Shown here piece after piece: positions 6,101-53,600 of a DNA stretch of 64,000 bases (its first letter is position 1; the number at the start of each line of letters is the position of its first letter). Position numbers and translations under genes: made by a program. The stretch is from Asterias amurensis. Its lineage: Eukaryota > Echinodermata > Asteroidea > Forcipulatida > Asteriidae. The notes below the pieces were generated by a model that did not search any database, had not been told where the DNA came from, and worked only from the letters and a program-made list of their open reading frames with translations. Location of the stretch: contig NC_092661.1 of NCBI RefSeq assembly GCF_032118995.1, positions 5,148,501 through 5,212,500 on the forward strand, read 5' to 3'.

Positions 6101-6709
6101 CAAACTTACCCGTAGCGGAGCAAGATCCCACAGAGAATTGTGTGTTTGGGTTGCCGTCAATTGCTCGAGCTGCAAATGCATAATTTCTGTAGTCCGAGAT
6201 CTGGCTGGCTTGCATCCCGCGGAGATCCAATGCTGAAATGAACATGACTCAATACAATAAAATATTCGTTCAAGGGAGATCAACTTTTTGATAATTACAC
6301 TTAAAGTTTATATTACAAACTTACAAACTGAGAGACATTCCACTTTCATAAATCACATTGTGTTTTCCTTCTAAAGATAATTCTCCGTGCGTGCACATTA
6401 TGCTTTTAGGGTTTTCGGCGATTTCTCAAGACGCAACCTTTTGAACGAAATGTTGACAAAGTCATGTAAGTTTTACGGTTTACATAATGTTAAACATTAA
6501 TGACCGGTTCCGAAAACTGAATGTATACTTTGCCTCAAAGTATGTTGTGTTTGCTTTATTAGTGTTCGCCATTTAGTTTTACCGTTATTAATATACTTAC
6601 CAGTGAGATTGAGGCACCAGCAGGATAGCGGGTAAAACCACGCGAGGATTCCAAAGAGAAATATCAACAGGTTTTTCTCTGGCCACATTATACCCTCACA
6701 GAGAGCCAT
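3194..6709 (-). CDS. Secreted F-type lectin with PAN/Apple-like domain, array copy A
   Basis: Five exons on the minus strand: 6709-6601, 6232-6110, 5394-5305, 4096-3833 and 3474-3194. They have GT-AG sites and phase-1 introns throughout and encode 288 aa. Residues 1 to ~33 form a signal peptide with a hydrophobic core near 14-31. Residues ~37-190 are an F-type lectin (fucolectin) domain with LRG, AIDGN, HPWWKV, NRGDCC, CGLPV and LCEV landmarks. Residues ~197-288 are a Cys-rich PAN/Apple-like domain with CFMRC, ECWSFDY and QCRLY. In this family the fucose pocket uses His, Arg-x-Asp and a later Arg. R103, D105 and R110 are present, but the His position aligns with A76. WWRVDL reads WWKVYL here. 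The product is expected to be extracellular glycan-binding, perhaps immune or gamete recognition (inference). The ATG was chosen because it gives a signal peptide and is conserved in copies B and C. Ligand specificity is unknown. Confidence 0.85.
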
Positions 6710-6900
6710 CCTTGCACCACACAAGACTAGTGCTATGTTTCTGAAATATCCTTTCAGTACAGACTGAACGCGGTGTGTTTAATACAATCTGCCAGTATAT
6801 GGCCGTCAACCAATAGGCGCTGGACTCGTGGGTCACGTGTTTACTGGGGTGCTCGCCCCTGATTATTATGAGGGTAAAATTTATTAAACTGCCAAAAAAG
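6710..6900 (-). promoter_or_regulatory. Putative lectin promoter region, copy A
   Basis: This stretch lies directly upstream of the minus-strand ATG and is conserved in the same place in the other array copies (about 37010-37200 and 53706-53900). It contains a CCAAT box (plus-strand caaccaatagg near 6807-6818) and a CACGTG E-box near 6835. Copy B has lost the E-box (caagtg). No convincing TATA box or transcript start could be fixed by eye, so this is a positional inference. Confidence 0.3.
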
Positions 6901-7874
6901 AAAAAAGAAAAAAGAAAATTGTACTTAGAATCATTGCAGCTAGTAATGGTTTGTTCACTATTTCGAGAAAGTTTTCCCTTCGAGTTTAATGGTTTTTATA
7001 TTGTTCACCCCCGAAAAACATGTGAATCAGAGAATTTAATTAAGGGCAGGTGTCCGTTCGCGAATGGGCTAAGGATGCGGTTGGAATAAGACCCTACCTT
7101 TAAAGGGTACATATGGATCTTGTTCCATTTTCAAAGTGATATGGTGGTTGTGAAAAAGGTTTATTGGAAGAATATACAAGACAATACAAAAGCATGAGAA
7201 TAAATTATGCACTTAAAGTACACAACTTTGTGCAACAAGGGTGTGTTCTCTGTCACTATTCTCTTGCAACTTCGACGGCAAAGTAAAGTCCAGATGATCT
7301 TAGATTTTTAATTTTATGCATAATTCAATATCGGGGTACATCAAGTGACAATTACCGAAGGTGTCCGTGCCTGTAATTAAGATACGAGGGTACATGTAAC
7401 AGAGTTTTTATTTTGGGGGATTTATCAAAGTTTGTCTTTTTAATTCTTTGTTGAGTGTTAAACCGGACGAGACTTTAAGCTGGTGGGTTAAATATATAAG
7501 TATAATCGACCCTGATTGCTTGATGACGAAACGCGTCATAGCGCATTGTTACCATTGGCAACGTGTTAAACAATGAAGTATTTCCAATCGTCCATGACAA
7601 CAATCCTGCGTCATGGTTTCAGTAACACACTTTTGATACACGAATCTTGAACGTCCTCGAAGAAGGCACTTGATTAGAAACACGTTTTTTAAAAGACGAA
7701 ATATTTTATGAGGTTCTGTGCTCATGGAGGGTGACTACAAATAAACCTTTAAAAATGGTGTGTGTACACTCACGTGCGTATGCCTACATACCAACACTAT
7801 AGGGTATCCGACCTGCATAGACCTATTCGCAAATACCCATTGCGCAAGCGCTAACTGTTGGATGAGATGCATGC

Positions 7875-7914
7875 TGGTCTAGCTAGCGATCAAACTTGAT
7901 CGCTAGCTAGACCA
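7875..7914. repeat. Perfect 19-bp hairpin in MITE-like sequence
   Basis: The arms tggtctagctagcgatcaa and their exact complement are separated by 2 bp. Flanking sequence (7828-7990) has weak inverted similarity around gcaaataccca, suggesting a small MITE. Identical hairpins lie at 38310-38349 and 55023-55062. A related sequence occurs inside lectin intron 3 near 4975. Confidence 0.8.
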
Positions 7915-17371: not shown

Positions 17372-20300
17372 CTAGCCACGGACTACTGCATACACCAAGC
17401 AGCCTGGCTGATCATCTGCTTTCAAGTATCCAGCCTTTACATCGTAGAGCCTGCACTGACCAGAAGTCATGTCGTAGTCGAAAGACCAACACTCGTTAGT
17501 TATCTTGCAACGCATGAAACATTGCATGGGTGACTTCATGTGAAGGACCGACAGAGGGCGTGCATCTGATACTTCTTTGTCCACAAACATCAATGTGGAC
17601 ATGCAGGTGATGGAGACCGACGGGTCCGCGATCATTGCTGCTGTAGACATGGCTGAAAAGTAAAACCAAACAGCTTACAATAGTAGCAACGAAAATATGG
17701 TGTTCTGGTAGATTGCAAACAAAAATGCAAAAAATGCAGCAAACTATCGGTCAAACCGGCAGCAGCAAAACAACCAAAATGAGCAGTAGACTCATATAGG
17801 TTGAGGTTGATGCTCTGATCTTTAATTAGCAACTATGGTGCAATGATTTTAAGATTCTGTTAACCAAATAATAACAGCAAATGCCACAACAGAGTTAGTT
17901 TATCATTCCTGATGAGGTGCCGAATAAAACCCCACCCCACAGTAGTGTGGGTGGGTCTACGAGCGAATACTTTCCTGTAGAGCGAATACTACAATTGCAT
18001 TGTTCCCTATGCCGGCAGGCAAAAAGCTAAGAGTTTTACACACAATAGCGCCCTCAAGAGTCCTATCCCTGACGCCCTGTGACATGCGCACACCGTCGGC
18101 GTCCTCTTTTTCGTCAAGCGTTACGCGCCTAAGTACTCAAGAAACCACTCGTATAGTGGGGTAGGAGGGAGGGTGCTCTACAGGTAAGTATTCGCTCGTA
18201 CACCCAACCACACTACTGTGGGGTGGGGTCTACTTCACTCTACTTACCTGTAGAGCGAATACTACAATTGCATAGACTCGCACCGAGTAGGCGGTGGGTA
18301 TACGCAGGCTATCGTATGTCTACAGGGGCGTAGGACACGGGGTGTGCCTAAGAACCCCAACGGAGGGCCCTAGCTCGCCCGCCGGTAAGCGGGTGCCAAG
18401 GGGTCAGAGGCGGGCTTCGCAACAGGGGGCCGGACCATGATAAACAGGTCGGTCTAGGCGCGTGGAACTGCGAGAACGACGCGCGCGGCCCTGGGGGCCC
18501 GCGAATCGTGCGCAAGACCTTAGGGGGGTATCGCCATTATGGGGTAAAAACATAATAGGTACACCTCGTTAAATGTCCAATGCACATAGGTAATATATAA
18601 ATTATTACATGTATAAGAGAGGAAAGTGGACTCACCAGTTAGCGTTTCTGTGAAACTTGACTGGCCGTCTTCAGCACTTCTCTCCCGGCTCTGCCGTCTG
18701 CCTTGAGGACATCCTTCAGGTAGAGCTCGCTGAAGGTGTTAGGACACTTCCAGCAGGCCTCCTTGGTGATATCTGCTTTAAAGAAGGCCCAAGAGGCAGC
18801 TACCCCCCTAACGTCATGCGCCCGAATCGTATTCTCGGTCGCCGGCCAGCCGCCCGGCACGGAGCGGATGGCGGTCACGATCCATCGTGAGATGGTGCAC
18901 GGTGACGCCGGCCGAAAGGGCGGTGTTGTCGTCACGAACAGGTTCTTATGGTCCGTACGAAGCGACTTCGTACGATTCACATACCACTTTAGTGCCCGGA
19001 CGGGGCACCACAGTTTGTCCTTCGCCTCTGATGAAAAGGAGTTAATGTCCGGGACAAAAATGTCCGTAGGCGTGAAGGAACTTGACTGGTTCTTGGTTAA
19101 AAAGCCGGTCGTGGGGACCAAGCGGATGCCGCCTGGTTCCCATCGGATATGTCCGGTCAGTACCGACAGGGCGTGCAGCTCACTGCGCCGTCGCGAAGTA
19201 GCGACGGCCAGGAGAAACGCCAACTTAACGGAGAGCTGCAGTAGTGTGGAGCAATCCATAGGCTCGTAGGGAGGCCCTGCTAAGGTTGACAGAACGTCGA
19301 ACAGGTCCCAAGACGGGACGAGTTTGCGTTCTGGGGGACGGGTGAAAAACATCCCCTTGATCAACTGGCTAAGGTTGTCTGAGATGGAGGAACCGTCTGG
19401 GAATCAGGGGTGGATCGCGGCGATAGCCGACCTGTAATTTCTGACCGTACCGGTCGTCAGGCCGCTATCTAGGAAATATACCAGGAAATCCCCCACCTCC
19501 CCTACAGAAGTATTGGTAGGATGGAGGGATTCCCGGCCACACCATTTAAAGAAATGGCGTAGTCGGCTGTTGTATACCTTCCTGGTGGAGGCCCGTCGTG
19601 ACTGGGCTGCGATTGTTGCAGCCCGTTGCGAAAGGCCTGCTGAGCGGAGGGATCGCGTGACAGCACCCAGCACGTCAGGTGAAGATCCCCCGGAGCCTGC
19701 TGGACCATCCCCGAACTGGGCTGATACAGGAGATCCGCTCGTCCTGATAGGATCACCGGACGGTGGACCAGTAACCTGACGAGTCGTGGGAACCACGGTT
19801 GGCGGGGCCAGAACGGGGCTATGAGGAGGACCCGGCAATCCTCCTGCTTGATCTTGGTCAGAACCCGAGAAACGAGCGAGATGGGTGGGAACGCATAGGC
19901 CAGTAGGCCGACCCATTGTACTGATAGAGCGTCGATCCTCCACGCGTTGGGGTCTGGGCCCCTTGCGCAATAGATCGGCAACTGGTGGTTCGCATGGGAG
20001 GCGAACAGGTCCACGTGTGGCTGGTCGATCAGGTGGAAGAGCGACCGAGCCACCTGTGGGAGAAGGGACCACTCCATGGGGGCAATCCAGCCCCTTGAGA
20101 GAGCGTCGGCTGTGACATTCTCTACGCCCGGAATGTGGACTGCTGATAGTGCTGTTCCCAGCTGTGTGCACCAGTGGATGAGATCCCAGGCCAGTGCACA
20201 CAGGCGTCTCGACCGGGTGCCCCCCTGGTGATTGAGGTAGGCCACGACTGTGGCGTTGTCGCATCTCACCAGGACCGCACGGCCCCTGACGTCTGACTGG

Positions 20301-23300
20301 AAATGTCGTAGTGCGTTGGAGACTGCCAACATTTCCAGGACGTTGATGTGGGCCGATCGGAACCCCACACGCCTGCGATTTGACGCGGTCGGAGGGTTGC
20401 CCCCCGCCGAGGAGTGACGCGTCCGTCGTGACGGTCACCGACGGCGGGGGCAGACGAAAAGCCCGGCCCTGCGAGATGTTCGCATCGGCTAGCCACCAGC
20501 GAAGGTGGGGGACTAGCCAGGGCGTGGTCGGCACCGGGTGGTGGATCCGGTGACGGATGGGCCTGTAAAAGGAGAGCAGGTGAAGTTGAATGGGCCTCAT
20601 CCTCAACCTGCAAAAGTCCACCAAATCCACCATGCTGGCCATAAGGCCCAACAGCCTGAGCCAGGCCAGTGCTGGGGCCACCACTGCCGGGAGGAAGAGA
20701 GAAACGCAGTAGGCGTTCCTCCGAAGGGCAGGTCAATCCCCTGCGCAGGTTGAGGGACGCACCAAGAAAGGTGGGAACCTGCGAGGGGATAAGGTGGATT
20801 TCTCGGTATTGATTATGAATCCGAGGTCGGAGGTCAGGCGCCAGGTATATTGGAGCACTGCCTCCGTCTTCTCCCAAGAACGGCCCACGACCAACCAGTC
20901 GTCCAGATATACAAATATCATGATGCCCGCCTCCGCAGTGCCTCTCCGATTGTCTTTACAATCCGGGTGAACATCCGAGGTGCGGTGGAGAGTCCGAATG
21001 GGAGCACCGCAAATTCGTACAGGGTATCGTTGTATAGAAAACGTAGGAATTTCAGGTCGAGACTCGCCGCCCATGCGGGCGTCACTATGGAACTCAGTAT
21101 AGTCCTGAGCGTCTCCATACGGAAACGCTTCGGACGGATGAACTTGTTGAGGGGTTTCAAGTTCAAAATCGGGCGCCACATGCCAGCCTCCTTCTTGGGA
21201 GTCAAGAAGAAGGTTGACATGAAGCCTGTCTGAGTCCCAGAACCGGGGACGATACGCACCGCCCCCTTGAGGAGGAGGGCGTTCATTTCCCCCCCGAGGG
21301 AGCGGCGCTTTGCTAAGTCGGACGGAACGGGTGTCGGCCGGCTGAGCATGTCCGACGGGGGGGTCCTCGTAAACTCGAGGTCACTTGCCCCCAGGACCCC
21401 AGAAAATTCCGGAGGCGGCCCCCCATGGGTCCGTCGGTGGGAGGCCGCTCGGAGTTTGTCAAGTCACTTGCGCCACGCCCCGGTATATCGGGGGGCGGGC
21501 GCTCGGAAACCACGACCCGACTGGGTGCGTGGTTGGCCAGGTTGAGTCTGTGGGTAGCGTGAGCCCGCCGTGCCACGAAAACTGCCACGGGCCGCCTTTT
21601 GTGGGCGGCAACGGGGGATGACGAAAGATGGCTGTTTCCTTACCTTGTTACCCACGGCCTTAGGCGGGGCAGGAGGCTTTTTCAGATTGATTTCGTGCGT
21701 GGCTTTGAGGCGCTTCACTTCAGCCTCCATGGACGTCGTCGCCAGGGTCGTTATCTTTGTGAACTGGTCGAGGATGGAACAAAGACCATTGTCCAAACAA
21801 TGAAGGGCCGCAATCATCATGTCCGCCGGCACCATGTTTTCCACGTCGCACCCCTGCTCCAGATATTCTGATAAGAGCAGGAGAAAGGATGTTGTGCGCA
21901 TACCCATGCGCGCCGAAGAATCCATTTTCCGGGCGACGTCCGCCAATTTGCCGCGGATCTTGTCCGCAGCTTGGAAGACGACGATCCCCTGTCCGCGACC
22001 AGCTTGTCGGAGGCTGAGTCCGGTAGGACGGGAGTGGCGAAATATTTTTCAAAATCCGCTGGAGGGAAACGGTAGTACGGCTCCGTACGTTTGGAGTATG
22101 GGGTCCATTTCTTCGTTCCCATTACCCCATCCATCCGGTCGCTGCACACCCGATCTAGGGGCATCAACGGGAAGGGTTTAGTTGCACCCGTTGCGGGGCT
22201 CGCCCTCTTCTTGAACGATTGGCGTTCGTCGGAGGGGGGCTCCGGCTCACAGGGGAGATTCAGAACTCTTATCATGTCTCTCTGTACCGTGCGTAGCTCG
22301 GTCTCGGAGACTGACAACCGTTGGATGGTGCTGAGCAACTCGTCCTCCTCATTGGCCGAGTCGGCCGAGTCGGAGGGACGAGATGTCATCGAGGAACGAG
22401 ATTCTGAACCAGCATCATCACGGCGCCCGTGGTCGGACTCAAAGGCCGCCGACGGGTGCAGACTGATGCATGGCGGGCCCCCCTGAGGGGGTCCTCATTG
22501 GGTGGTAGCCACACGCCCCTGAACGTATGGGTTAGCGGGCGGTTGTGGCAAACCCGGGGGGGGGGGGAATCCGGCGCACGGCTAGCCGTGTGGGGGAGTC
22601 CCCGTTGGCCCGGTGCAAGCCACCCATGGCCGTGTTGACTTTGGGGCACCGGTTCGGTGGCCAAGTCAGACGGGCCTTGTCCACCACCCTCGCGACGACC
22701 CATAATTGAGGCCGCGAGGGTGTGAAAAGCTTCCAAAAATTCTTCCCTCGAGATCGGGTCCCCACCCTTGTGACGTTTGTCACGGTGGGGACGATCGGAG
22801 GTAGAGCCGCTCGAGCTGGGACTACGAGGGCGGGCTTTCTTGCCCTTTTTGGAGGGGCGTCCCCGAGCCGACTCCGATGTAGTATCGGAGGGCGGCTGCG
22901 GGGCGGGAATACCCGAGCAGCGGGTAAACCCTGAAGTGGAGGCCGACCCTTCGGAACGTAGCGTTCCGACGGGGCCCCAAGGGGTCTGTACCCCGTTGCC
23001 AATCTCCCTGGCAACCGCCAGCGCCCCGAGCCCGATAGCGCAGGCTGCCTGGTCGGGGCGGCGGTACAAAAGGCCATCCCTGGGCACCGCGGTACTTGCG
23101 TGTGCACTGTGGGGGGCCGGGTGCACCGAGCCGTGGAGAGGTAATTTCTCCGGCTGTGCATACCCTGTACTCAACCCTGGGTGCACCGAGCCGTGGAGGG
23201 GTACCCCCTCTGGCTGTGCGTGCCCCGCTGGCTGGCCTGGGATCGATGGGGCGGGCCCCGTAGTGGAGTCCCGCTTACCAACTCGTCCCTTCTTGGGTGT

Positions 23301-26300
23301 CGCCCCGGTACTAGGCAATTTTTTGGCCTTACCGGGGCGTTTCCCCTTCTGTCGGGCGGATCCCGGCGGAGACGGTGAGACCGTAAGGTCCCCCGCTCGG
23401 CCGGTTACAGATCCGTCAGCCCCGGCAGCCGGCGATGGCTGAGGGGGCTGACTGGGAGATTGCTTTGGCGGCGACGTAATGTCACCGTCGCAATCCCCCG
23501 AGGACTCGGGCTGTCTCGGAGGGATGTAGGTCCCCCCTACGTCGACAAGCCCTGTCCTCCCGATTTCTTATAACTCATAATTAAATCTCACTCTAGAATT
23601 TCTCAACAACTCTACTAGAAATTCTCAACACTTACAGACTATCCTGCTATCGGATATCTGCTAAACTACACTCTTATTTTAGCTAAAAGGGGCAAAGAAA
23701 TCTACCGTAATACGGACAATCACGTACTTACGTCCGCTACCTTTGCCGGCTAAGAGAAAAAGAGGACGCCGACGTGGTGGGCATGTCACAGGGCATCGGG
23801 GATAGGACTCTTGAGGGCGCTATTGTGTGTAAAACTCTTAGCTTTTTGCCTGCCGGCATAGGGAACAATGCAATTGTAGTATTCGCTCTTCAGGTAAGTA
23901 GAGTGAAGTAGACCAATTGTTTTTTTTTTCATTAAAAACCAACATGGTTTACTTTCATTTGTCTTCGAAATTTTGTCCCCTTCTTTTTCTTCTTACTTGT
24001 TGATTGAGGGCAGTATTCCAGTGGGTACTCTTCGACCATCACTTCGCACAGTGTTATGAGGTTGTCCTCATATCCATTCATATGATCTTTGTCGTCCACG
24101 CTGACGTACTGCGCAATCACGGGAGGGTCACACAAAAACTGTATGTGTGCCCCAGGGATCGATGCTTGGACCGATGTCACTGGTAACCCACAGGCGGCAT
24201 TGTTGAAAATGTCGCTCTCTATGCCTGCTCTAACGACAGCACCAATCAGTCGATTATCTGCCAATGAAAAATCATTTCTTATAAACTCATTTCAGTTCAG
24301 GATGCATTGTTGACAAATGCATTGCAAACATGACACCAAATTAAACGACACGTTGGGGTTAGCCACCACCGATAGGCATTGCAGTGTAATCATTGATTGT
24401 GTTAATGATAAAGATCTAGGTGGATTTTTTCTAATCAGAATGATCTTAAGTTCCTTTTGTCTGCGAAGCAAAAAAAAAACAGATAAAAACTTTGCCAGAA
24501 AATACTCGTTAGTATAGCGTAATGTAGGTATTCATAATAAAACGTCATCGTTTGTATCATCAACAAACCCACTCATGGAACTTTTATTGTCACAGAAAGT
24601 CCGTCAGTGTGCATGTAGACCTTTTCGAATCACGTCGTGCATTGGCCTAATGTCATGGCTCTGCTTGTTCTGAGCACCAAATCGGCACTCGCGGAAGCAA
24701 GGAATAGGGGACTTTCGGGACGCTTGGTGGCAGCAGACTTACCAGGTAAAATCCATTGTTCTCGGTAATGTGCGCATGCTCAGAACTACGTTAACAATGA
24801 ACATTTACCTTAAAGGTGTGCGTTCAAAAGTCTTTTATTCCAGGCGTATTCACGAGTTTGCGGGGAGTTTTGGCTTGTGTGTGTGCGTACTCCACGTAGG
24901 CATTCTACGCATAGCAATTCGGCGCTTTAGCGTGAACGGAGAACGGTGAGCGTAAGCGCAGAATCCGGCGGTCAGCAGAGCCATGAAATCGGGCCCTGGT
25001 CTAGCTTGCGATCGAATTTGTTCGCTAGCTAGGTCAGCAGGCACCTCATTCCAGTCATACCTTCCTAAACTTCCTTTCAGCCGTGCCGGTATCACTCCGC
25101 ACAAGATCGAGTGATAAATATCACAATTGAGAAGTACATTTCAAACTAACTTTTACTTTAATTGAACATTTTCCGTTTTGATAATCACATGAACAGGTCC
25201 TCTTTGGTAAAAAGTTTAAATAAATTTAGAAAGTTATCGCTGATTATCAGATACCTCGGCTTTATAACCCAAGATCGCGCCAGTCATATCAAAACGTTTC
25301 AAAGTATTAACTTTTAGAACTTACTATAGCTGTCTCCTCTGTTGACAAGGGTGATACGACCGAGGCGGTGGTTTGCTCCCAGGTCCACCTTCCACCAGGG
25401 ATGGGAATTTATGCCTACAACAAGAACGAATTTAAGAGAGTTCTGGATTACATACTGATGTTGAAAACCTTATGGTATCGATGGTGTATAACCACAAACA
25501 AACACGCAGTTTTGACTACTGTGTTCCCACGAAGTGATCTGTTGACCTTTTGAAGCATTAGTACGAAGGCCCATTAGTGCCAGCAAAAAATAAAATTCAA
25601 ATCCGTTATTACGGATTCGCAATCCGTTATTAGGGATTAGTAATCCGTTATAACGGATTTGCAATCCGTTATTAACGGATTAACAATCCGTTATTACGGA
25701 TTTGCAATCCGTTATTACGGAAAAGTAATCCGTTATTACGGATTAGTAATCCGTTATTACGGATTAGTTATCCGTTATTATGGATTAGTAATCCGTTATT
25801 ACGGATTAGTAATCCGTTATTACGGATTCACAATCTGTTATTACGGATTAACAATCCGTTATTACGGATTTGTAATCCGAAATTACGGATTCCCTCGAGG
25901 ATCCCCCGAGGGCGCTATGTGCTGGTTACTCAGCCTAGAGTGCAGTGGTTTGATTGACGCAATTTTGTGGAGTCAAAGATTTGACACCACCAAAATGACG
26001 AACAGTGTTACTTCACGTAGTATAAAGAAAATCACACAAAATGGCATTGTGTGCGGTCATAACATTATACTTTAAGAATCAGTTCAGGTAAATAATTGAC
26101 ATACTTGCTCACGGTCAAATTTTTTTTATACTTTGTAGGTGGAAGGGCCTTTGGGTGCAAATAAACAAAATTGCATTTTCAATTCCACATATAGCCCGTT
26201 GCCATGGTGATTTTGTTTTTTGGCCATTTTAGGCGGATTTTGGGGTCTGAAAAACTGTTTTTTAGCTCATTTTTACAACTCCACCCCACCAAAATGCAAA

Positions 26301-29300
26301 ATTATTTCAAAAAACCTTGTATATCACTACAAAGTATCATCCTTGGCCTTCCTTTCAGAAAAACAATTATTGCTTTAAATATCACCCTTGTGCTATTTTT
26401 GCATCGTTTATTACAGTATGTTTGCAAAATCGCCATTTTTACCCTATTTTTGGACTCAAAATGTCAACTTGCCAGGGGTCTCAGAAAATTTTCCTTTCGG
26501 CTGTGATCAGGGCCAACATTGGTCTTTTCATATCTGGTGTGAAAAACTTGGGCAATTGTATCCTGTTGTGACAGTACTGCCTCAAAACTAGACTTTTTTC
26601 CCCAAAACGTGAAAAAATGCTTTTTAAGGGTCTTTTCAAATAATGTTGACATACGTGTCCACGGTGAAAAAAAAAGGAATATTTTTCTTATACTTTGTGG
26701 ATGGTAGGAACTTGGGTTCCAAATAAACAAAATTTACATTTCAAATCATTATACAATACGCAGGCTGCAATACGTTGCCATGGTAACAGTTCATTTGTGT
26801 TTAGGCCACTTTAGGCCGATTTGGGGGTCTGAAAAACTGTTTTTTAGTTAATATTTACAACTCCACCCCACCAAAAAACACAAATATTTCATAAAACCTT
26901 TTACATCACTACAAAGTATCATCCTTGGATTTACTTGAGTCAAAAATTATTGCTATAAATTTCACCCTTGTGCTATTTTCAGAACGTGCATTAGAGTATG
27001 TTTTTCGAACTTGCAAAATCAACTTTTTTACCATATTTTTTGCCCTCAAAATTTCATTTTTTCAGGGGTTTCAGAATATTTTCCTTTCGGTTTTGATTAG
27101 GGCCAAAATTGATCTTTTTATTTCTGGTAAGAAAAACTTGGGCAAATGTATCCTGTGACAGTACTGTCTCAAAAATATACTTTTTTTCTCAAAACAGAAA
27201 AATGCATTTTGAATTGTTTTTTTCTTCATATTGAATTTATAACATTATAAAGTACTAATTCTATCAATCCTGCAGCCCTTGCTAAGCACTCTGTAGGCTT
27301 AGTGGATTACCCAACATTGATCAGGAACTATTGATGACATAAATTTTAGAATTTGGTGGCCCAGCCCCAATCATATTCCTTGACATTGCATAAAACAATG
27401 TTTTGTGAATAGCGCCTCTTTTTTTAAAGTGTTCCCTTTCGGTTGTGATTGGGGCGATTATTGGTGTTTTCATGTCTTCTGGGGAGAAACACTTGGGTTT
27501 ATTGTATCCTGTTGTGACACTACCTGCCTCAAGTATAGTAATTTTTTTCAAAAACAATGTATGCTTGTAAAAATCTGGCACTGTTTCCATGCCCTTTGAG
27601 TATTGAGTACAAAGTTTTTATTTAAACATAATGGTATCCAGCCAAGCCATAACCAATGCTTTGCCACTGAGAGTTCTTGATTTGGCTACTTTACCTATTG
27701 TACAGGTACATGTATGATTCCCATTGCAAGTAGCGTGCAATGAGCATTATTTACAAGTTGTCTTTAATACAGGGCCTACTCTCCTTGGTCCCTGCCTGCT
27801 ACCAAATGTAAAACTTTTCATAGAGATAGAGATCATGAACAATAGAGTTTCTGTGCTGCAGATGGTTTGGAGCATCGAATCATGTCCAACACAAATGTGG
27901 GAAATTAAAAAGCCTTCGCTTAAAAGTGTTGGAAAAATTTTGCCAAGATCTTATTAAAAACAATGATACTAACGATTTGTAAGATGAACGTAAGAGATCA
28001 TTTAAAAGGAACACGTTGCCTGGGATCGGTCAATTTGGTCTTTGAAATGCGTTTGTAACAGTTTGTTATAAAATGCATACGTTAGAAAGATGTTTTTGAG
28101 TGATACTTGTGTGGATCATTGTTTTCTACTTTTAAAATATCTTTCTAATCATATGCATTTTGTAATAAACGGTTACAAACGCTTTTCAAAGACCAACTCG
28201 ACCGATCCAAGGCAAAGTGTTCCTTTAATGAAACAACATTGACAGAAGTTGTAAATACTTGCACCTGCTCAACCTAAATTAGTAAGATGCAATTGCAGTA
28301 ACAAAAGTTTATTAATCCTAGTTTAATTATTTTTTCCATTCGCTATCTTACTAATTCATATTTGGTATATATATCTCTGAGAACGATCAACAAAAAACAT
28401 TGTCAAACATTACCTGCTGAATTGTTTATCACGTAACCAACTCTGTTATTGCTTGCAACAGTACAATTGAAAGGAACCCCACCATGGGTGAGGGAACTGC
28501 TTACAGAAGGCTTAAGCAGGTGAATGGCCATTTAGATACTTTGGAGACAGTATTTCCCCCTGCGCACTTTTAGAGCCTCTTTGTTCTGATGGGGATGAAA
28601 ATGTTTAGTTTGGTAGCAGGCAGGGGACCAAGGAGACTGTTTTAAGGCCATGTATAGACAACTTGTAAAGAATGCTCATCGCACTACTTCTCTTCTTGCA
28701 ATGTGAATCATACCTGGGCCCAATTTCATGGCTCTGCTTACCGCCGAATTCTGCGCTTACAATTGCGATTCCCCGCTTGTGTGCAAGCGCCAAATTTCTG
28801 CGCTAGCCTTGTAAGCGTAAAATGCCTAGTAACTTGAAGTATGCACGCGCTGAAGGCAAAATTCGCCGCTAACCCGTGAAATACGCTTGCCGTAAGCACA
28901 AAATTGTGTGCTTACGGTTAGCAGAGCCATGAAATTGGGCCCTGGACAACTAGGTAAAGAAGTCATGACGAAACAAGAACTCTCAGTGGCAAAGCATGGT
29001 TGTGGCTCCAAAAAAAAACCGTTGTACTTGTTACTTTAAAGAGCATGGAAACAGGGTTTAACGATCATGCACGTTTTTGTGTTTTATCAATTCAAACTAA
29101 GGAATATCTTCAAAATGCATTTTTCTTGTTTTCGGAAAAATTACCATGTTTGATGCAGAAGTGTCACAACACCAAAGTGTTTCGCCCCAGCAGACATGCA
29201 AACCATAATGATAGCCCAATCACAACCAAAAGGGAAATATTCTGAGAACCAATAAAAATTAAGACAGCACAAACTTTCTTGATGTGCAAGGGGATTTAAA

Positions 29301-32300: not shown

Positions 32301-35300
32301 GTTTCCATGCCCTTTGAGTACTGAATACAAAGTTTTTATTTAAACATAATGGTATCCAACCAAACCATAACCAATGCTTTGCCACTGAAAGTTCTTGATT
32401 TGGCTACTTTACCTATTATACAGGTATGATTCCCATTGCAAGTAGAGTGCGATGAGCATTCTTTACAAGTTGTCTTTAATACAGGGCCTACTCTCCTTGG
32501 TCCCTGCCTGCTACCAAATGTAAAACTTTTCTTAGAGACAGAGATCATAAACAATGTAGTTTCTGTGCTTGCGGCAGATGGTTTGGAGCATCGAATCATG
32601 TCCAACACAAATGTGGAAAATTAAAAAGCCCGCTTAAAAGTGTTGGAAAAGTTTGCCAAGATCTTATTAAAAACAATGATACTAACGATTTGCAAGATGA
32701 GCGTAAGAGATTATTTAAAAGGAACACGTTGCCTGGGATCGGTTAAGTTGGTCTTTGAAATGCGTTTGTAACGGTTTGTTTTAAAATGCATGGTTTTTGA
32801 GTGATACTTGTGTGGATCATTATATTCTACTTTTAAAATATCTTTCTAATCATAATGCATTTTTTAATAAACATTTACAAACGCTTTTCAAATACCAACT
32901 CGACCGATCCAAGGCAACGTGTTCCTTTAATGAAACAACATTGAAAGAAGTTGTAAAAACTTGCACCTGCTGAACATAAATAAGTAAGATGCATTTGCAG
33001 TAACAAAAGTCTATTCAGGCTAGTTTGATTATTATTTCCATTCACTATCTTACTAATTCATAATTATTATATATGTCTCTGAGAACGATCAACAAAAAAC
33101 ATTGTCAAACATTACCTGCTGAATTGTTTATCACGTTAAATAAACCAACTCTTTCATTGTTTGCAACAGTACAATTGAAAGGAACCCCACCATAGATGGG
33201 GGAACTGCTTACAGAAGGCCAAAGCAGGTGAATGGCCATTTATACTTTGGATACAGTGCTTGCTCACTTTTAGAGCCTCTTTGTTCTGATTGGGATGAAA
33301 ATGTTTAGTTTGGTAGCGGGCAGGGGACCAAGAAGACTATTATAAGGCCATGTAAAGACAAGAACAGTAAAGATTGCTCATCGCACTACTTCTCTTCTTG
33401 CAATGTGTACCATACCTGTACAACTAGGTAAAGTAGTTATGACAAAATAAGATCTCAGTGGCTTAAAGAGCATGGAAACAGTGCCATATATTTTTAACAA
33501 GCATGCTCGTTTTTTTGTTTTTTATCAATTCAAACTAAGGGATAACTTCAAAATGCATTTTTATTGTTTTTGGAAAAATTACCATTTTTGAGGCAGAAGT
33601 GTCACAACAGGATACAATAAACCAAAGTGTTTCTCCCCAGTAGTCATGCAAACCATAATAATAGCCCAATCAAAACAAAAAGGGAAATATTCTGAGAACC
33701 AATAAAACATTAAAGACAGTACAAACTTTCTTGATGTGCAAGGGGAATTAAAAAATGTGATTTTCAAAAAAGAGGCGCTGTTCACAAAACTGTTATTTTA
33801 TTTTATGCAATGTCAAGAAATATGATTGGGCCAGAGCCGGGGTGGGGCAAATTATAAGATTTAGGTCATCAACAAGTCCTGATCAATGTTTGGTAATGCA
33901 CTAAACCTACAAAGTGCTTATAAAAAGCTGCCAGATTGATGGAATTATTGCTTACTTCTTCATGTTATAAATTCAAAATGAAGCAAATATTTCAAAATGC
34001 ATTTCTCTATGTTTTCGGGGAAAAGGGTCTATTTTTGAGACAGTTCTGTTACATCAGGATACAATTGCCCGAGTTTTTCTTACCAGAAATAAAATGACAA
34101 ATTATGGCCCTGATCAAAACCGAAAGGAAAATATTCTGAGACCCCTGAAAAATGGAATTTTGAGGGCAAAAAATATGGTAAAAATGTTGATTTTGCAAGC
34201 TCTAAAAACATACTCTAATGCACGTTCTTAAAATAGAACAAGGGTGAAATTTATAGCAATATTTTTTTTGTCTCAAGTAAAGCCAAGGATGATACTTTGT
34301 AGTGATGTAAAAGGTTTTATGAAATATTTTTGTTTTTTGGTGGGGTGGAGTTGTAAATATTAGCTTAAAAAAACAGTTTTTCATACCCCAAAATCGGCCC
34401 AAAGTGGCCTAAACACAAATGAACAGTTACCATGGCAACGTGTTATATTATGATTTGAAATGTTAATGTTGTTTATTTGCACCCCAAGTCCCTACCATCC
34501 ACAAAGTATAAGAAAAATATTCCTTTTCTTTTACCATGGACACGTATGTCGATATTATGTGAAAAGACCCTTAAAAAGGCATTTTTCATGTTTTGGGGAA
34601 AAAAGTCTAGTTTTGAGGCAGTACTGGCCCAACAGGATACAATTGCCCAAGTTTTTGACACCAGATATGGAAAGACCAATGTTGGCCCTAATCACAGACG
34701 AAAGGAAAATTTTCTGAGACCCCTGGCAAGTTGACATTTTGGGGTCAAAAAATAGGGTAAAAATGTCGATTTTGCAAGTTCTAAAAACATACTGTAATGC
34801 ATGATGCAAAAATAGCACAAGGGTGATATTTAAAGCAATAATTTTTTTTCTCAAGGAAGGCCAAGGATGATACTTTGTAGTGATATAAAAGGTTTTTTGA
34901 AATAATATTGCGTTTTGGTGGGGTGGAGTTGTAAATATGAGCTAAAAACCAGTTTTTCAGACCCCCAAATCGGCCTAAAATGGCCAAAAAACAAAATGAG
35001 CCGTAACCATGGCAACGGGCTATATATAGAATTGAAAATGCAATTTTGTTTACTTGCACCCCAAGGCCCTTCCACCAACAAAGTATAAAAAAAATTCATT
35101 TTTTGACCGTGAGCAACTATGTCAACTATTTACCTGAACTGACTCTTAAATGTTCAAAAAAAAAAAATAATTAAACAACTGTTCATGTTTTCATCATGAT
35201 TTATTTGACTTGAAATCATAGTTTTTCTGTTAAGCAAATAATGAGCGTTTTCGGAAATTTGAAGGGTATATGCATGGATGACATGTAGATATATCATGAC

Positions 35301-37009
35301 AAAAAATGCTTCACGGTGGAGACTCGACTTGATGTATTTCATTAAAACTACTCAGATATAATCAATGTCAATTTTGCCAACCAAGTGATGTTAGTTTGAT
35401 TTTTATCCTTTTAATTATTTCACTCTGGGGACTGAGTAAGTCATTGGGTCACCCAGAAATAATGGAACTACAAACTGTCTTCTAATCATTGTTCTTATGA
35501 CAGTTATATAAACGAAGACCTTCTCTAAAGCATCTTCCTTACACTTAACTCCGTCGGGATCTAAGATTCCTAAAGAGACGGCGGACAGTTCCCTGTCCAA
35601 ATTGCGAATCCGTAATAACGGATTATAACGAATCCGTAATAACGGATTGCTAATCCGTAATAACGGATTATGAATCCGTAATAACAGATTGCGATGATCC
35701 GTAATAACGGATTGCTAATCCGTAATAACGGATTGCGAATCCGTAATAACGAATTGCGAATCCGTTATAATGGATTTGAAATTTATATTTTACTGGCGCT
35801 AATGGGCTTCCGTACATTAGCGAAGTTCCACGAAGTGATTGAGAGTTAAAAACTCGTTTTGGAATGCTTTCCACACCAATGTATTCAAGATTTACACTGA
35901 CAGTTTATTTTGTAGTTGGTTGGTATTCGACAGAAGGAAAAAGTCGCATCTATGTCACAAAGTCCGACCAGGCCCTTTCAAAACTTCTGTCTTTTCATTG
36001 GTTTAGAGCGCGTCACATGATAGTTTTACTAGAAACCCCGCGGCCGTGTAGAAGCCGTTTGCTTGCATGGCGCGCGCAGTAGACCAAGACGTCGTTTTTA
36101 CCCAACTCGAACCCGGTTGTGCATCTGTGTATCTAAAGATGCGCGTACGAATGTTACGTGTACGAGGCTGATAAATAATCATCAGTTCAACTGCGGTTGT
36201 CTCTAAACACGTAATTGCTTGCTAGGCCCTCGTCAGTTCTTAGGGGCAACCCACGATACGATACGAGTGTGCGGAGATAACAAAATCGAACAAAGTTTTA
36301 AAATGCGAGGCTCGTATGTTTGTTGCGCCGAGTAACACTCTCTTCTAAACCACCAATGTAATTTATAATTTGCATCTTCCAATTTGTTTATTTATTTAGA
36401 CTTCAAACTTACCCGTAGTGGAGCAAGACCAGTGAAAGAAGTTTGTGTTTGTGTTGCCGTCAATTGCTCGTAATGCTGCTGTGTTACTTTGGTAGTCCGA
36501 GATCTGGCTGGCTTGCATCCCACGGAGATCCACCGCTGAAATTAACATGACTCAATTTTCAATAAAATGTTCGTTCAAGGGAGATCAACTTTTTGATAAT
36601 TACACTTAAAGTTTATATTACAAACTTTTGAGAGACATTCCACTTTCATAAATCACATTGTGTTTTCCTTCTAAAGATAATTTTCCGTGTGTGCACATTT
36701 TGCTTTAAGGGTTTTCGGCGATATCTCAAGACGCAACCTTTTGAACGAAATGTTGACAAAGTCATGTAAGTTTTACGGTTTACATAATGTTAAACATTAA
36801 TGACCGGTTCCGAAAACTGAATGTATACTTTGCCTCAAAGTATGTTGTGTTTGCTTTATTAGTGTTCACCTTTTAGTTTTACCGTTATTAATATACTTAC
36901 CAGTGAGATTGAGGCACCAGCAGGATAGCGGGTAAAACCACGCGAGGATTCCAAAGAGAAATATCAACAGGTTTTTCTCTAGACACATTATACCCTCACA
37001 GTGAGCCAT
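17372..37009 (-). CDS. Secreted F-type lectin with PAN/Apple-like domain, array copy B
   Basis: Five exons: 37009-36901, 36535-36413, 25414-25325, 24257-23997 and 17652-17372. All splice sites are intact and the product is 287 aa. The layout is the same as copy A: signal peptide, F-type lectin domain, PAN/Apple-like domain. The gene is stretched to ~19.6 kb by a 10.25 kb element in intron 2 and a DIRS element in intron 4. Exon 2 reads NTNTNFFHWSCSTTG, strongly different from copy A. The His pocket position is T76. Exon 3 lacks three cysteines seen in copies A and C: NHC is NHR (residue 94) and NRGDCC is NRGDSY (106-107). The latter removes the adjacent Cys pair next to the sugar site of F-type lectins. 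Exons are open, so this is either an active diverged paralogue or a gene recently freed from constraint. Whether the large introns still splice is unknown. Confidence 0.8.
17931..23913 (-). mobile_element. Fossil DIRS-family tyrosine-recombinase retroelement
   Basis: About 5.98 kb, read on the minus strand. It lies in intron 4 of lectin copy B; copies A and C show the empty site. Parts in order are a gag-like region (~23318-21460), reverse transcriptase (~21350-20730), RNase H and linker (~20370-19780) and tyrosine recombinase (~19700-18640). Ends are inverted repeats of ~130 bp (17980-18116 against 23756-23888). Complementary sequence near 18150-18280 corresponds to the internal complementary region typical of DIRS. 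There is no target-site duplication, as expected for recombinase-mediated insertion. It looks broken, with roughly three to five interruptions. It is much more GC-rich than its surroundings. It is younger than the array because only copy B has it. Confidence 0.88.
25595..25893 (+). repeat. Left satellite-like array of the composite element
   Basis: About 14 monomers of ~21 bp, each with an AATCCGTTATTACGGATT core that is itself nearly palindromic. Monomers vary by a few bases. A reading frame stays open across the array only because 21 is divisible by three. Confidence 0.9.
26100..27230 (+). repeat. Pair of ~0.57 kb subrepeats in a palindrome arm
   Basis: The block beginning around tgctcacggtcaaa and containing gccattttaggc, aactccaccccaccaaaa, tcatccttgg, ttttcctttcgg and acagtactgcctcaaaa recurs about 0.57 kb later as a diverged copy (cacggtgaaaaaa, ggccactttaggc and so on). 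The same doublet appears in all four arms of the two palindromes, giving eight monomers. Small frames inside recur for this reason and are not genes. Confidence 0.75.
28017..28224. mobile_element. AGGAACACG-family MITE at palindrome spacer, unit 1
   Basis: Ends aggaacacgttgcctggg and complementary aaggcaaagtgttcct, with TTAA at the right and TTAAA-like bases at the left. Long inverted halves with gtgtggatcat near the centre. The same family occurs at 32720-32926, 44756-45105 and 49765-52263. Confidence 0.7.
28716..28942. mobile_element. GGGCCCAATTTCATGGCTCTG MITE
   Basis: About 227 bp with ends gggcccaatttcatggctct and its complement and an inner hairpin-rich core with cgcttac and gcgctag motifs. 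Unit 2 reads straight through at the matching site (near 33416). Partial relatives of this family lie near 4640-5030, 10370-10440 and 49090-49500. Confidence 0.78.
30788..35145. mobile_element. Palindromic TTAA-flanked element, unit 2
   Basis: Same structure as unit 1, with a terminal inverted repeat perfect over about 54 bp including TTAA (30784-30787 and 35146-35149). Arms are inverted copies (32430-32540 pairs with about 33305-33410). It is separated from unit 1 by about 105 bp of other sequence. It lacks the MITE present at 28716-28942 in unit 1. Confidence 0.78.
32720..32926. mobile_element. AGGAACACG-family MITE at palindrome spacer, unit 2
   Basis: Counterpart of 28017-28224 at the same place in unit 2, so it was present before the two palindromes were copied. 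Confidence 0.7.
35415..35600 (-). other. Short open frame of unknown origin inside the composite element
   Basis: A 61-aa minus-strand frame of ordinary protein-like composition (for example LGILDPDGVKCKEDALEKVF) lies in the unique stretch next to the right satellite array. It has no counterpart at the left end and no recognisable domain. It may be a captured exon fragment or chance. Confidence 0.2.
35600..35782 (-). repeat. Right satellite-like array of the composite element
   Basis: About eight monomers of the same ~21-bp repeat in inverted orientation (AATCCGTAATAACGGATT). The right array is shorter than the left, so the terminal repeats differ in length. Confidence 0.9.
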
Positions 37010-47659: not shown

Positions 47660-50600
47660 CTAGCCACGGACTACTGCATACACCAAGCAGCCTAGCTGAT
47701 CATCTGCTTTCAAGTCTCCAGCCTTTACCTCGTAGAGCCTGCACTGACCAGAAGTCATGACGTAGTCGAAAGACCAACACTCGTTATTTATCTTGCAACG
47801 CATAAAACATTGCATAGGTGACTTCATGTGAAGGACCGACAGAGGGCGTGCGTCTGATACTTCTTTGTCCACAAATATCAATGTGGACATGCAGGTGATG
47901 GAGACCAACGGGTCCGCGATCATTGCTGCTGTAGACATGGCTGAAAAGTAAAACCAAACAGCTTATAATAGTAGCAACGAAAATATTGTGTTCTGGTAGA
48001 TTGCAAACAAAAATGCAAAAAATGCAGCAAACTATCGGTCGAACCGGCAGCAGCAAAACAACCAAGTTAAAGCAAAAGACTCATATAGATTGAGGTTGAT
48101 GCTCTGATTTTTAATAAGCAACTATGGTGCAATGATTTTAAGATTTTGTTAACCAAATAATAATAGCAAATGCCACAACAGAGTTAGTTTACCATTCTTG
48201 ATGAGGTGCTGAATAAAACAATTGTTTTTTTTTCTTGATTATAAAACAACATGGGTTACTTTCATTTGTTTTCGAAGTTTTTGTCCCCTTCCTTTTCTTC
48301 TTACTTGTTGATTGAGGGCAGTATTCCAGTGGGTACTCTTCGACCATCACTTCGCACAGTGTTATGAGGTGGTTTTCATATCCATTCATATGATCTTTGT
48401 CGTCCACGCTGACGTACTGCGCAATCACGGGAGGGTCACACAAAAACTGTATGTGTGCCCCAAGGATCGATGCTTGGACCGATGTCACTGGTAACCCACA
48501 GGCGGCATTGTTGAAAATGTCGCTCTCTATGCCTGCTCTTACGACAGCACCAATCAATCGATTATCTGCCAATGAAAAATCATTTCTTATAAACTCATTT
48601 CAGTTCAGGATGCATTGTCTTCATGTTGGTGTAAAGGTTGTTTATTTTTTCTTCTTCTAGTTTTAGGACAACCAATGTTTTTAATGGTTTTGATGTTCAC
48701 TACATTACATTATTTATCCCCATTAACAAACATGACACAAAATTAAACGACACGTTGGGGTTAGCCACCACCGATAGGCATTGCAGTGTAATCATTGATT
48801 GTGTTAATGATAAAGATCTAGGTGGATTTTTTCTAATCAGAATTATCTTAAGTTCCTTTTGTCTGCGAAGCAAAAAAACAGAAAAAAAACTCTTGCCAGA
48901 AAATACTCGTGAGTATAGCATAATGTAGGTATTCATATTAAAATGTCATCGTTTGTATCATCAACAAACCCACTCATGGAACTTTTATTGTCACAGAAAG
49001 TCTGTCAGTGTGCATGTAGACCTTTTTGAAAATACCCATTGCGAATGCGTTTGCCAGACTGTTGAATCACGTCGTGCATTGGCCTAATGTCATGGCTCTG
49101 CTTATTCTGAGCACCAAATCGGCACTCGCGGAAGCAAGGAATAGGGGACTTTCGGGACGCTTGGTGGCAGCAGACTTACAAGGTAAAATCCATTGTTCTC
49201 GGTAATGTGCGCATGCTCAGAACTACGTTAACAATGAACATTTACCTTAAAGGTGTGCTGCCACCTAGCGTTCAAAAGTCTTTTAATCCAGGCGTATTCA
49301 CGAGTTTGCGGGAAGTTTTGGCTTGTGTGTGTGTGCGTACTCCACGTAGGCATTCTACGCATAGTAATTCGGCGCTTTAGCGTGAACGGAGAACGGTGAG
49401 CGTAAGCGCAGAATCCGGCGGTCAGCAGAGCCATGAAATCGGGCCCTGGTCTAGCTTGCGATCGAATTTGTTCGCTAGCTAGGTCAGCAGGCACCTCATT
49501 CCAGGCATACCTTCCTAAACGCCCTTTCAGCCGTGCCGGTATTACTCCGCACAAGATCGAGTGATAAATATCACAATTGAGAACTACATTTCAAACTAAC
49601 TTTCACTTTAATTGAACATTTTCCGTTTTGATAATCACTTGAACAGGTCCTCTTTGGTAAAAAAGTTTAAATAAGTACAGTAAGTTATCGCTGATTATCA
49701 GATACCTCGGCTTTATAACCCAAGATCGCGCCAGTCATATTATCAAAACGTTTCAAAGTATTAAAGGAACACGTTGCCTTGGATCGGTCGAGTTGGTCCT
49801 TGGAAAGCGTTTGTAACCGTTTTTTTATAAAATGCACATGGGTAGAAAGATGTTGTAAAAGTAGAATACAATGATCCACACAAACATGCCTCGAAATTGC
49901 ACGGTGTTCCTTTTACCTCGTCGACTAACACGGTCGGCCATTTATGGGAGTCAAATTGTTGACTCCCATAAATGGTCGACCGTGTTAATTCGCACAGTAA
50001 AAGGAAAACCACGCAGTTTCGAGGCAAGCTTGTGTGGATCAATGGGTCGTATGAACAAAAAGTAGTATTTACTGACAAGTACTAGCAAAAAGTAAAAGCA
50101 TAAACTTCCAAGTAGAAGCATTCAGTAAAAGCATCTTCTGAATTCCGTATTAATAAACCTATTCTTTTACTGCAAAGTATTTACTTAATGCTTTGGAGGA
50201 AATACTTCTGATATACCATGGCTGAATGGCTCTTAACAAAAGGTTTCCTTTGTATTACAACTCCCATTCACGTCTACGTACGCGCTCACACACACAGCCA
50301 AAGCAGCATTTGATTTAATAGAAACACAGAAATCTTCAAGTCAGCCATGAGGTTTTTATTCTGACAACATTTTGATGAAGACGACTCATCTGGACACACA
50401 GAATAAAAACGTTTTTGTTATGCTTTTGAAACTTGGAGTGCATGACAGCGCTGTACAGGGTGTCTCAAAAAAAAGGTAATCCTACTTTAAAGGGTTTTTA
50501 TGGCCAGACTATTATGTTTACCAGCAGAAAGCATGGCATCATCTTAAAGCTGAAAACTTGTGCTTTCCAATAATACATTTGGTTACATTCCAGGGTCATG

Positions 50601-53600
50601 CATCAGCGAGCACCATTGTCTTGAAAATGTGGTGCAAAAATGCAGTTGGTTCCCATGTCATTTTGGCCTTCAGACAGAGTGTAAACCTCGGGTTGTCACA
50701 AACGGTTCAGCTAATAACAGCAGAGTGGCCAAGAAAAGGTATGAAACCAGAAGTTTGCTGGGATCTCTCTCACACCGCTCAAGAAGCCACTCACAGAAAG
50801 TATGTCTTCTTGCAAGATCAGGAAGCAGAAGTTCATGACGGATGTGAAGATGTGGAACAGGTGGAAGTGAAGGTCCAGATGAGTGATCCGATTAAAAGTG
50901 GTGTAGCTCAGTCCAACACCATTCCGTCTTGCACTTGTCTCCCGTGGGTGGTCAATCAGTTGCTGTCGTAGGATAGCGATTTTTTCCTGAGATCTCGCTG
51001 TCCTTGGCCTTCTTGAACTTCCTTTGTTGCGATTGAGGTTGGTTCCTGATGTGCTTCATACTTTCTCACATTGGCCCAGATTGTTTCTTTGCTGGTGGTT
51101 CTCGATCTGGGAATGCTTCTCCAAATTCATCCTGTGTAGCCTGCAAAAAGTGCTGGTTGCATACCATTTCTTGACCACAAATGTTCTCTGTTCTGCCGTT
51201 AGCTGAACCATTGTGACAACCTGAGGTTTACACTCTGTCTGAAGGCCAGAATGACAAGGGTTTAAAAGTGAACCAACTGCATTTTTGCACCACATTTTCA
51301 AGACGATGGTGCTCGCTGATGCATGACCCTGGAATGTAACCAAATGTATCATTGGAAAGCACAAGGTTTCAGCTTTAAGATGATGCCATACTTTCTGCTG
51401 GTAAACATAATAGTCTGGCCATAAAAACCCTTTAAAGTAGGATTACCTTTTTTTTGAGACACCTTGTATAGAGAAGATGAGAGCTGGATATGAGCATACC
51501 TATTTAAATTAAACTTAAAAGTTTTAATATAGCACGAACAACATTCTATTGAAATGCATTCAATTGTTTAAAAAATTACTTCTTCTGATTTTATGAACAA
51601 TAAGCCTTAATGATCGAGGCATTCATTTCTGAGTTGAAAAAATTCTTTATATCTTTTTAATGATACTGTAATGATACAAAACCTTTTTTTTACAAACGGT
51701 TTTGTTTTATCCTCAGCATATTTAAACAAGTTTGATTAAAAGCAGTTTGAGTTTGTGTGTATTGTTTCTGTTGTGAAACACTGTGTATGTGTTTATTTAA
51801 TATTTCAGTGATGTCTTTCCTTTGGACTAAAACATTTATCCTGTGAGGAACATTCATAAACACTGTCATTTCTTCGGACGAGCCTTTTACGTCTGTGCCC
51901 AAGGTAGCTCTGGAGCTACCTTGAAAAATCACTAGTATTTACTTGCATTTTGTAGTATATTCTCCGTTTTATTCATATGGAAGTAAGTAAGTGCTAAAAT
52001 TAAAAGAATTTACTTTTTGGTAAAAGTAGATACTTTTAGCATTTTAGTAAATACTTTTAAGTAACAGTTTTTACTTCCTTTTATTCATATGGATGGTAGT
52101 AAATACTTGAAATTTTCAAGTAAAAGTAAGTACTACTTTTTATTCATACGACCCATTGTATTCCACTTTTTAAACGTCTTTCCAACCATACGCATTTTAT
52201 AATAAAAAAGGGTTACAGACGCTTTTTTATACCAACTCGTCCGATCCAAGGCAACGTGTTCCTTTAACTTTTAGAACTTACTACAGCAATCTCCTCTATT
52301 GACAAGGGTGATACGACCGAGGCAGTGGTTTGCTCCCAGGTCCACCTTCCACCAGGGATGAGAATTGAAACCTACAACAAGAACGAATTTAAGAGAATTG
52401 TGGATTACATAGTGATGTTGAAAACCTTATGGTATCGATGGTGTATAACCACAAACAAACACGCAGTTTTGACTACTGTGTTCCCACGAAGTGATCTGTT
52501 GACCTTTTGAAGCATTAGCGAAGTTCCACGAAGAAATTGAGAGTTAAAAACTCGTTTTGGACTGCTTTCCACACCAATGTATTAAAGATTTACACTGACA
52601 GTTTATTTTGTAGTTGGTTGGTATTCGACAGAAGGAAAAAGTCGCATCTATGTCACAAAGTCCGACCAGGCCCTTTCAAAACTTCTGTCTTTTCATTGGT
52701 TTAGAGCGCGTCACATGATAGTTTTACTAGACACCCCGCGGCCGTGTAGAAGCCGTTTGCTTGCATGGCGCGCGCAGTAGACCAAGACGTCTTTTTTTAC
52801 CCAACTCGAACCCGGTTGTGCATCTGTGTATCTAAAGATGCGCGTACGAATGTTACGTGTACGAGGCTGATAAATAATCATCAGTTCAACTGCGGTTGTC
52901 TCTAAACACGGAATTGCTTGCTAGGCCCTCGTCAGTTCTTAGGGGCAACCCACGATACGATACGAGTGTGCGGAGATTACAAAATCGAACAAAGTTTTAA
53001 AATGCGAGGCTCGTATGTTTGTTGCGCCGAGTTACACTCTCTTCTAACCACCAATGTAATTTATAATTTGCATCTTCCAAACAGTTTTAATTTAGACTTC
53101 AAACTTACCCGTAGTGGAGCAAGACTCAATAAAGAAGTTTGTGTTTGTGTTGCCGTCAATTGCTCGAGCTGCAAATGCAACATTTCTGTAGTCCGAGATC
53201 TGGCTGGCTTGCATCCCGCGGAGATCCAATGCTGAAATGAACATGACTCAATACAATAAAATATTCGTTCAAGGGAGATCAACTTTTTGATAATTACACT
53301 TAAAGTTTATATTACAAACTTACAAACTGAGAGACATTCCACTTTCATAAATCACATTGTGTTTTCCTATTAAAGATAAATTTCCGTGCGTGCACATTAT
53401 GCTTTTAGGGTTTTCGGCGATATCTCAAAACGCAACCTTTTGAACGAAATGTTGACAAAGTCATGTAAGTTTTACGGTTTACATAATGTAAAACATTAAT
53501 GACCGGTTCCGAAAACTGAATGTATACTTTGCCTCAAAGTATGTTGTGTTTGCTTTATTAGTGTTCGCCATTTAGTTTTACCGTTATTAATATACTTACC

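Follow-up and report, generated by a model that had tools for sequence, protein, structure and literature searches.

A tandem array of F-type-lectin and PAN genes in Asterias amurensis whose exon 2 loops appear to have been recombined and selected

The window, by which we mean the whole stretch of 64,000 nucleotides that was analysed (C14:5148501-5212500 of a 491.5-Mb assembly in 23 contigs), contains three tandem gene copies, A, B and C, on the minus strand. Each has five exons, which when spliced give open frames of 288 (A), 287 (B) and 286 (C) amino acids with the same domain order: a signal-peptide-like segment in exon 1, an F-type lectin domain in exons 2-4 and a PAN domain in exon 5 (Table 1). 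An earlier note on this DNA had placed a 123-nt exon 2 of each copy on the minus strand, and its coordinates all proved correct; the exon is bounded by AG acceptors and GTAAGT donors, and follows an intron 1 of 365-368 nt in the three genes. That the array genes encode F-lectins, as the same note had held, was borne out by matches of the gene A lectin domain to FBP32 (3cqo, E 5.8e-26) and to eel agglutinin (1k12, E 6.1e-16), and two F5/8 type C Pfam families scored above cut-offs in A, B and C. A fourth gene, D, lies on the opposite strand, its exons being found as separate matches and its PAN domain by Pfam (PAN_1, E 4.6e-8); those of A, B and C were recognised by similarity. Gene B carries additional material in its introns: overlapping ORFs at 18639-23318, inside intron 4, which we take to resemble a DIRS-type element, and at 26071-35150, in intron 2, a nest of inverted and direct repeats with blastn pieces 77-92% identical and ungapped inverted arms up to 98%.

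Table 1. Positions of the lectin genes and their exons in the window.
Feature	Position	Strand	Remarks
Gene A exon 1	6601..6709	-	ATG; hydrophobic signal-peptide-like stretch by inspection; splice site, open reading
Gene A exon 2	6110..6232	-	N-terminal part of F-lectin domain
Gene A CDR1-like codons YRNYAFAA	6168..6191	-	Variable sites, 1k12 alignment; boundaries ours
Gene A spacer RAIDGN	6150..6167	-	Conserved calcium motif; putative crossover hinge
Gene A CDR2-like codons PNTQFSVG	6126..6149	-	Variable sites, 1k12 alignment; boundaries ours
Gene A codon at eel His52 place (Ala)	6114..6116	-	Alignment to 1k12
Gene A exon 3 (WWKVYLG...NRGDCC)	5305..5394	-	
Gene A exon 4, C-terminal half of F-lectin domain	3833..4096	-	
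Gene A exon 5, PAN domain and stop	3194..3474	-	Acceptor TTTACTTTTCAG
Gene B exon 1	36901..37009	-	
Gene B exon 2	36413..36535	-	CDR1-like codons 36471-36494, CDR2-like 36429-36452
Gene B exon 3	25325..25414	-	RGDSY, vicinal cysteines absent
Gene B exon 4	23997..24257	-	
Gene B exon 5 (PAN)	17372..17652	-	
Gene C exon 1	53600..53705	-	
Gene C exon 2	53109..53231	-	CDR1-like 53167-53190 (A-like), CDR2-like 53125-53148 (nearer B)
Gene C exon 3	52282..52371	-	
Gene C exon 4	48305..48565	-	
Gene C exon 5 (PAN)	47660..47940	-	
Gene D exon 1, partial match	59360-59419	+	D exons are separate matches
Gene D exon 2	61622..61753	+	Fourth gene; divergent long-CDR1 group
Gene D other exon matches	62178-62261, 63085-63321, 63738-63941 (PAN)	+	Separate matches

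Searching the genome with exon 4 returned at least 115 matches. Exon 2 was readable at 25 loci, which include A, B, C and D, and all five exons matched in order at 15 of these 25 within the fetched stretches; all comparisons below are among paralogs from one genome assembly. Some relatives are damaged: in c1_295 (exon 2 near C1:24295745-24295870) a short duplication shifts the frame, and the exon 4 match of g4331 (C14:4328277-4328483) contains one stop.

Exon 2 is far more diverged among the three array copies than the introns adjoining it. It differs at 25/123 sites between A and B and 11/123 between A and C, numbers that had been put at about 25 and 11 by eye, and at 21/123 between B and C. 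The corresponding counts are 11/364, 7/369 and 14/364 for intron 1 and 14/326, 9/323 and 9/325 for the first ~325 nt of intron 2, so that the introns diverge by about 2-4% (Fisher test of exon 2 against introns 1 and 2, p = 1.7e-9 for A-B, 9.2e-4 for A-C and 1.2e-7 for B-C). Equal divergence of introns and exon 2, which would have spoken against the diversifying recognition gene proposed in the earlier note, was therefore not what we found. All seven codons changed between A and C alter the amino acid, as had been claimed; between A and B, 13 codons are amino-acid changing and two, rather than the single one counted before, are synonymous (CGC/CGT, and GCA/GCG split across the exon 1/2 junction). 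The description of the changes as almost only protein-changing thus fits the codons but not a strong excess of nonsynonymous over synonymous change, because third positions differ about as often (A-B, 8/41) as first and second positions (17/82). In another set of close relatives (g4331, g4341, g4354 and c1_284) exon 2 was likewise in excess in five of the six pairs (p < 0.01), the exception being g4341-c1_284 (p 0.12); three of the six pairs involve g4331, with its stop in exon 4. The g5124/g5137 pair showed no exon 2 excess (1/129 vs 25/762 in the flanking sequence, p 0.16), and excess divergence of exon 2 is not universal in the family.

The amino-acid changes cluster in two loops, in agreement with the earlier reading: of the 13 positions at which the three proteins vary, 12 lie in the loops aligned with CDR1 and CDR2 of the eel lectin or at its His52, the remaining one being codon 2. 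With eel numbering taken from the 1k12 alignment and loop boundaries set by us, these 12 fall within eel positions 28-34, 41-48 (the place of Tyr46 included) and 52. In the excerpts of PMC5712786, pocket roles in the eel lectin are assigned to Leu23, Glu26 and His27 of CDR1, Phe45 and Tyr46 of CDR2, and His52. Across 23 aligned family members, mean column entropy is 1.30 bits in exon 2, 0.48 in exon 3 and 0.86 in exon 4.

The two loops appear not to share one history. Exon 2 is a mosaic in which the first loop of C resembles that of A and the second comes closer to that of B: in the first half of the exon C differs from A at 2/84 sites and from B at 16/84, and in the second half from B at 5/39 and from A at 9/39, the B-C differences there being confined to two adjacent codons (CAC TGG / ATT GAG), both amino-acid changing. 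The 22 sites that join C to either A or B fall, in order, into runs of 14 A, 4 B, 2 A and 2 B (runs test, p 0.0023). Outside the array, g4354 and g4341 differ at 1/81 sites in the first half and 11/39 in the second. PHI tests on 11 genes detected recombination at three window sizes (p 0.0025, 0.0005 and 0.0005). This set was picked after the sequences had been inspected and left out c1_295 (frameshift in exon 2), g5137 (a near copy of g5124 with exons 3-5 unassigned), g5109 and c8; with the last three restored, p was below 0.02 in 27/27 combinations of nine gene sets and three windows, also without A, B and C. Among nine long-CDR1 genes one of three windows fell below 0.05, and with 23 genes PHI gave no signal (p 0.99, 0.71 and 0.25). 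The test for gene conversion that the earlier note had suggested is therefore positive for recombination in the 11 genes but null in the wider set.

The position of a possible exchange was examined by scanning 14 breakpoints in the 11 genes under HKY. The best one lies directly after the AIDGN spacer between the loops (dAIC -60.6), and all 14 improved AIC (-6.8 to -60.6); since every breakpoint gains under this model, which is without rate variation, part of the AIC gain is not recombination. With rate variation modelled, the halves of exon 2 rejected each other's trees (AU p 0.005-0.015), and the whole-exon tree was rejected by neither the left (p 0.29) nor the right half (p 0.09). A maximum-run test on 55 pairs left only g4341-g4354 below 0.05 after Bonferroni correction, and an assembly-wide search for a closer donor of A's exon 2 turned up none, its three matches being A itself, C and, over part of the length, g4354. 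A tree test gave no significant evidence that the whole exon departs from an A+B+C clade (AU p 0.267), and we dropped the idea that it does. Recombination between variant loops seems to account for part of what separates A, B and C.

Pairwise ratios do not demonstrate selection here. By NG86, exon 2 gave dN 0.228, dS 0.269 and dN/dS 0.85 for A-B; 0.108, 0.055 and 1.98 for A-C; and 0.178, 0.249 and 0.72 for B-C. A ratio at or below 1, named earlier as evidence against diversification, was thus obtained for A-B and B-C, and with values straddling 1 we did not accept pairwise dN/dS as a demonstration of positive selection. Relative to introns, nonsynonymous divergence in exon 2 is 4-5 times higher (p 7.8e-8 for A-B, 4.2e-4 for A-C, 9.1e-6 for B-C) and synonymous divergence 2-6 times (p 7.6e-4, 0.16 and 5.2e-4, respectively), in tests for which the fractional NG86 counts were rounded and in which path averaging at multi-hit codons can inflate dS. 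Strict fourfold sites differ at 2/14 for A-B (p 0.097), 0/16 for A-C (p 1) and 2/16 for B-C (p 0.11), and with this excess not significant the silent sites do not prove import from a diverged copy. The same data bear on a scenario in which old loop variants have been kept by balancing selection while conversion homogenised flanks and introns, leaving exon 2 older than its surroundings. The NG86 silent excess over introns (p 0.0008 for A-B, 0.0005 for B-C) would follow from it, as would the finding that the CDR1 half of B is closer to that of g4825 (7/84) than to that of A (15/84); the strict fourfold sites count against it and, as it needs recombination too, it overlaps with the explanation that we prefer rather than excluding it. 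As a separate account we hold it to be quite unlikely.

Site models do find codons with dN/dS above 1. For exon 2 of the 11 genes the preferred class had an omega near 2.5 (M8a/M8 p 0.0009, M1a/M2a p 0.006), and exon 2 was also positive in a separate 10-gene group (p 0.004). The exon 2 row of g15424 ended in a surplus codon, whose column was dropped from the site models. Recombination can inflate tests of this kind. With each half analysed on its own tree, the CDR2 half gave omega ~6 (p 5e-6), and none of 80 null simulations reached its observed M1a/M2a statistic; the CDR1 half gave p 0.011 for M8a/M8 and 0.074 for M1a/M2a, with 2 of 60 simulations reaching the observed value. Positive selection is thus supported most strongly for the second loop and is marginal for the CDR1 half. 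By our loop boundaries, 10 of the 11 exon 2 codons with PP > 0.8 belong to one of the two loops or to the place of His52. Exons 3 and 4 were positive as well (10 genes, g4331 left out; p 1.5e-5); among their nine codons at PP > 0.8 are the codon that separates Arg79 from Asp81 and five from the NEHEN stretch in exon 4. Of two gene groups, the first (9 genes) had a single positive codon in the PAN domain (p 0.001) and the second (8 genes) had none, and exon 1 was not significant (9 genes, p 0.15). Because exons 3 and 4 and one PAN codon were positive, the selection signal extends beyond exon 2 and one control region is unclean. Diversifying selection, as the earlier note had proposed, is therefore upheld by the site models, but not by the pairwise ratios and not for exon 2 alone.

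A rival account is that the loops evolved in place after duplication by positively selected point substitutions, without exchange. It accommodates the nonsynonymous excess over introns, the site-model support, the lack of a significant fourfold-site excess and the restriction of B-C differences in the CDR2 half to two adjacent amino-acid changing codons, and parallel changes under selection could partly mimic the conflict between halves. It sits poorly, however, with two exon 2 halves of conflicting histories and with A-B and B-C ratios that are not above 1, and we judge it unlikely to suffice.

The His52 of the fucose-binding triad is replaced in all three genes, by Ala in A and Thr in B and C; it is retained in 16 of 23 aligned family members. 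Gene A has Tyr at the place of eel Asp64. The Arg-x-Asp-x4-Arg part of the fucose motif is present (RGDCCNNR in A and C, RGDSYNNR in B), as is the calcium motif h2DGx (AIDGN in all three). Because His52 is lost, ordinary fucose binding by A, B and C seems doubtful from their predicted residues. Relaxed constraint or decay of dispensable copies, their loops drifting after sugar binding had been lost, would agree with the replaced His52, the Tyr in A, the absence of vicinal cysteines in B and the presence among relatives of the frameshifted c1_295 and of g4331 with its exon 4 stop. Nonetheless, the frames of A, B and C are still open, exon 2 varies among them at only codons 1, 2 and 5 beyond the loops and the His52 place, pairwise dN/dS in exon 4 is 0.28-0.64, and an omega near 6 in CDR2 is not drift; we regard decay as very improbable.

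We think it fairly probable that the best explanation is a family of recognition lectins diversified by duplication, loop shuffling and selection. On this explanation A, B and C would be members of an expanded, presumably secreted family of F-type-lectin and PAN proteins, in which exon 2 would encode both CDR1 and CDR2, pocket-lining in the eel lectin, split by the AIDGN calcium motif. Tandem segmental duplication would have produced the copies; exchange of short tracts inside exon 2, by recombination or gene conversion and with crossover points close to the invariant AIDGN spacer, would have mixed CDR1 and CDR2 variants among paralogs; and selection would have favoured new amino acids at pocket positions, CDR2 foremost, together with sites in exons 3 and 4. 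The gene structure, the loop-centred variation, the half-versus-half conflict, the excess over introns and the class with dN/dS above 1 are direct observations; we infer conversion as the physical process, and the proteins may bind ligands and serve to recognise variable non-self or partner glycans, for which a putative immune role seems to us likelier than one in gamete recognition. A bolder possibility, which we offer tentatively and would not ourselves expect, is a germline combinatorial lectin system, with the hypervariable CDR1 and CDR2 of the 123-nt exon reassorted time and again between paralogs through exchange at the calcium motif, and selection acting on combinations that differ between individuals. 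If the loops swap as units, germline binding-site diversification would become testable in an animal without antibodies, and one could name the unit that is exchanged, the hinge at which crossovers fall and the residues under selection. The locus also counsels caution, in that protein-changing differences between paralogs can mimic pure positive selection when they are partly due to recombination.

Oyster (Crassostrea gigas) bindin, to which the earlier note had likened these genes, is the nearest process known to us. As excerpted from PMC5712786, its pocket diversity arises by positive selection and recombination, some isoforms are without the His-Arg-Arg triad, and bindins, which are located in sperm, are encoded by a few single-copy genes that carry between one and five lectin domains and are alternatively spliced. 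On that partial account, the F-type lectin fold and, it appears, the combination of pocket-site positive selection with recombination are common to bindin and the sea star paralogs. The analogy thus holds for process but not for layout, few genes with lectin repeats contrasting with many genes, among which A, B and C each join a single lectin domain to a PAN domain. The eel fucolectins AAA and eFL-1 to eFL-7 vary in CDR1 and CDR2, most in CDR1, and strictly retain His52 (excerpts of PMC5712786); gene A is homologous in sequence to eel 1k12 and, so far as those excerpts go, loop variation in CDR1 and CDR2 is common to both, whereas A, B and C have lost His52, and the 1k12 chain, at 158 residues, is too short for an added PAN domain. 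Among the matches listed, no literature was closer than PMC5712786 and no title named an F-lectin plus PAN protein, which does not prove that none has been published. Among echinoderms, the closest precedent for a family of mosaic genes, judged from the part of PMC1988830 that describes it, is sea urchin Sp185/333 (SpTransformer), whose clustered genes are mosaics of elements and have been proposed to arise by gene conversion and recombination. There, elements and repeats vary, unlike the two lectin loops within one 123-nt exon of the sea star, and no relationship to lectins was seen in that part of the source.

Elsewhere in the assembly, an array at C8:20564-20583 kb consists of tandem F-lectin units of about 1.27 kb whose exons 3 and 4 are near-identical, a multi-domain layout reminiscent of oyster bindin. 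Four exon 2 copies that were read there (C8:20565500-20571000) vary, in the residues shown, only at the CDR1 tip (TTHNEN, TTPNEN and, twice, TTFLEN) and at one A/T position. Contig C23 carries a COI that translates into a conserved protein with mitochondrial table 9, which echinoderms and flatworms use, and the remaining 22 contigs agree with the 22 chromosomes given for three sea star assemblies. COI matches at C5:659729-660166 and C5:676149-676586 score equal to the C23 copy and are either nuclear mitochondrial insertions or a matter of assembly.
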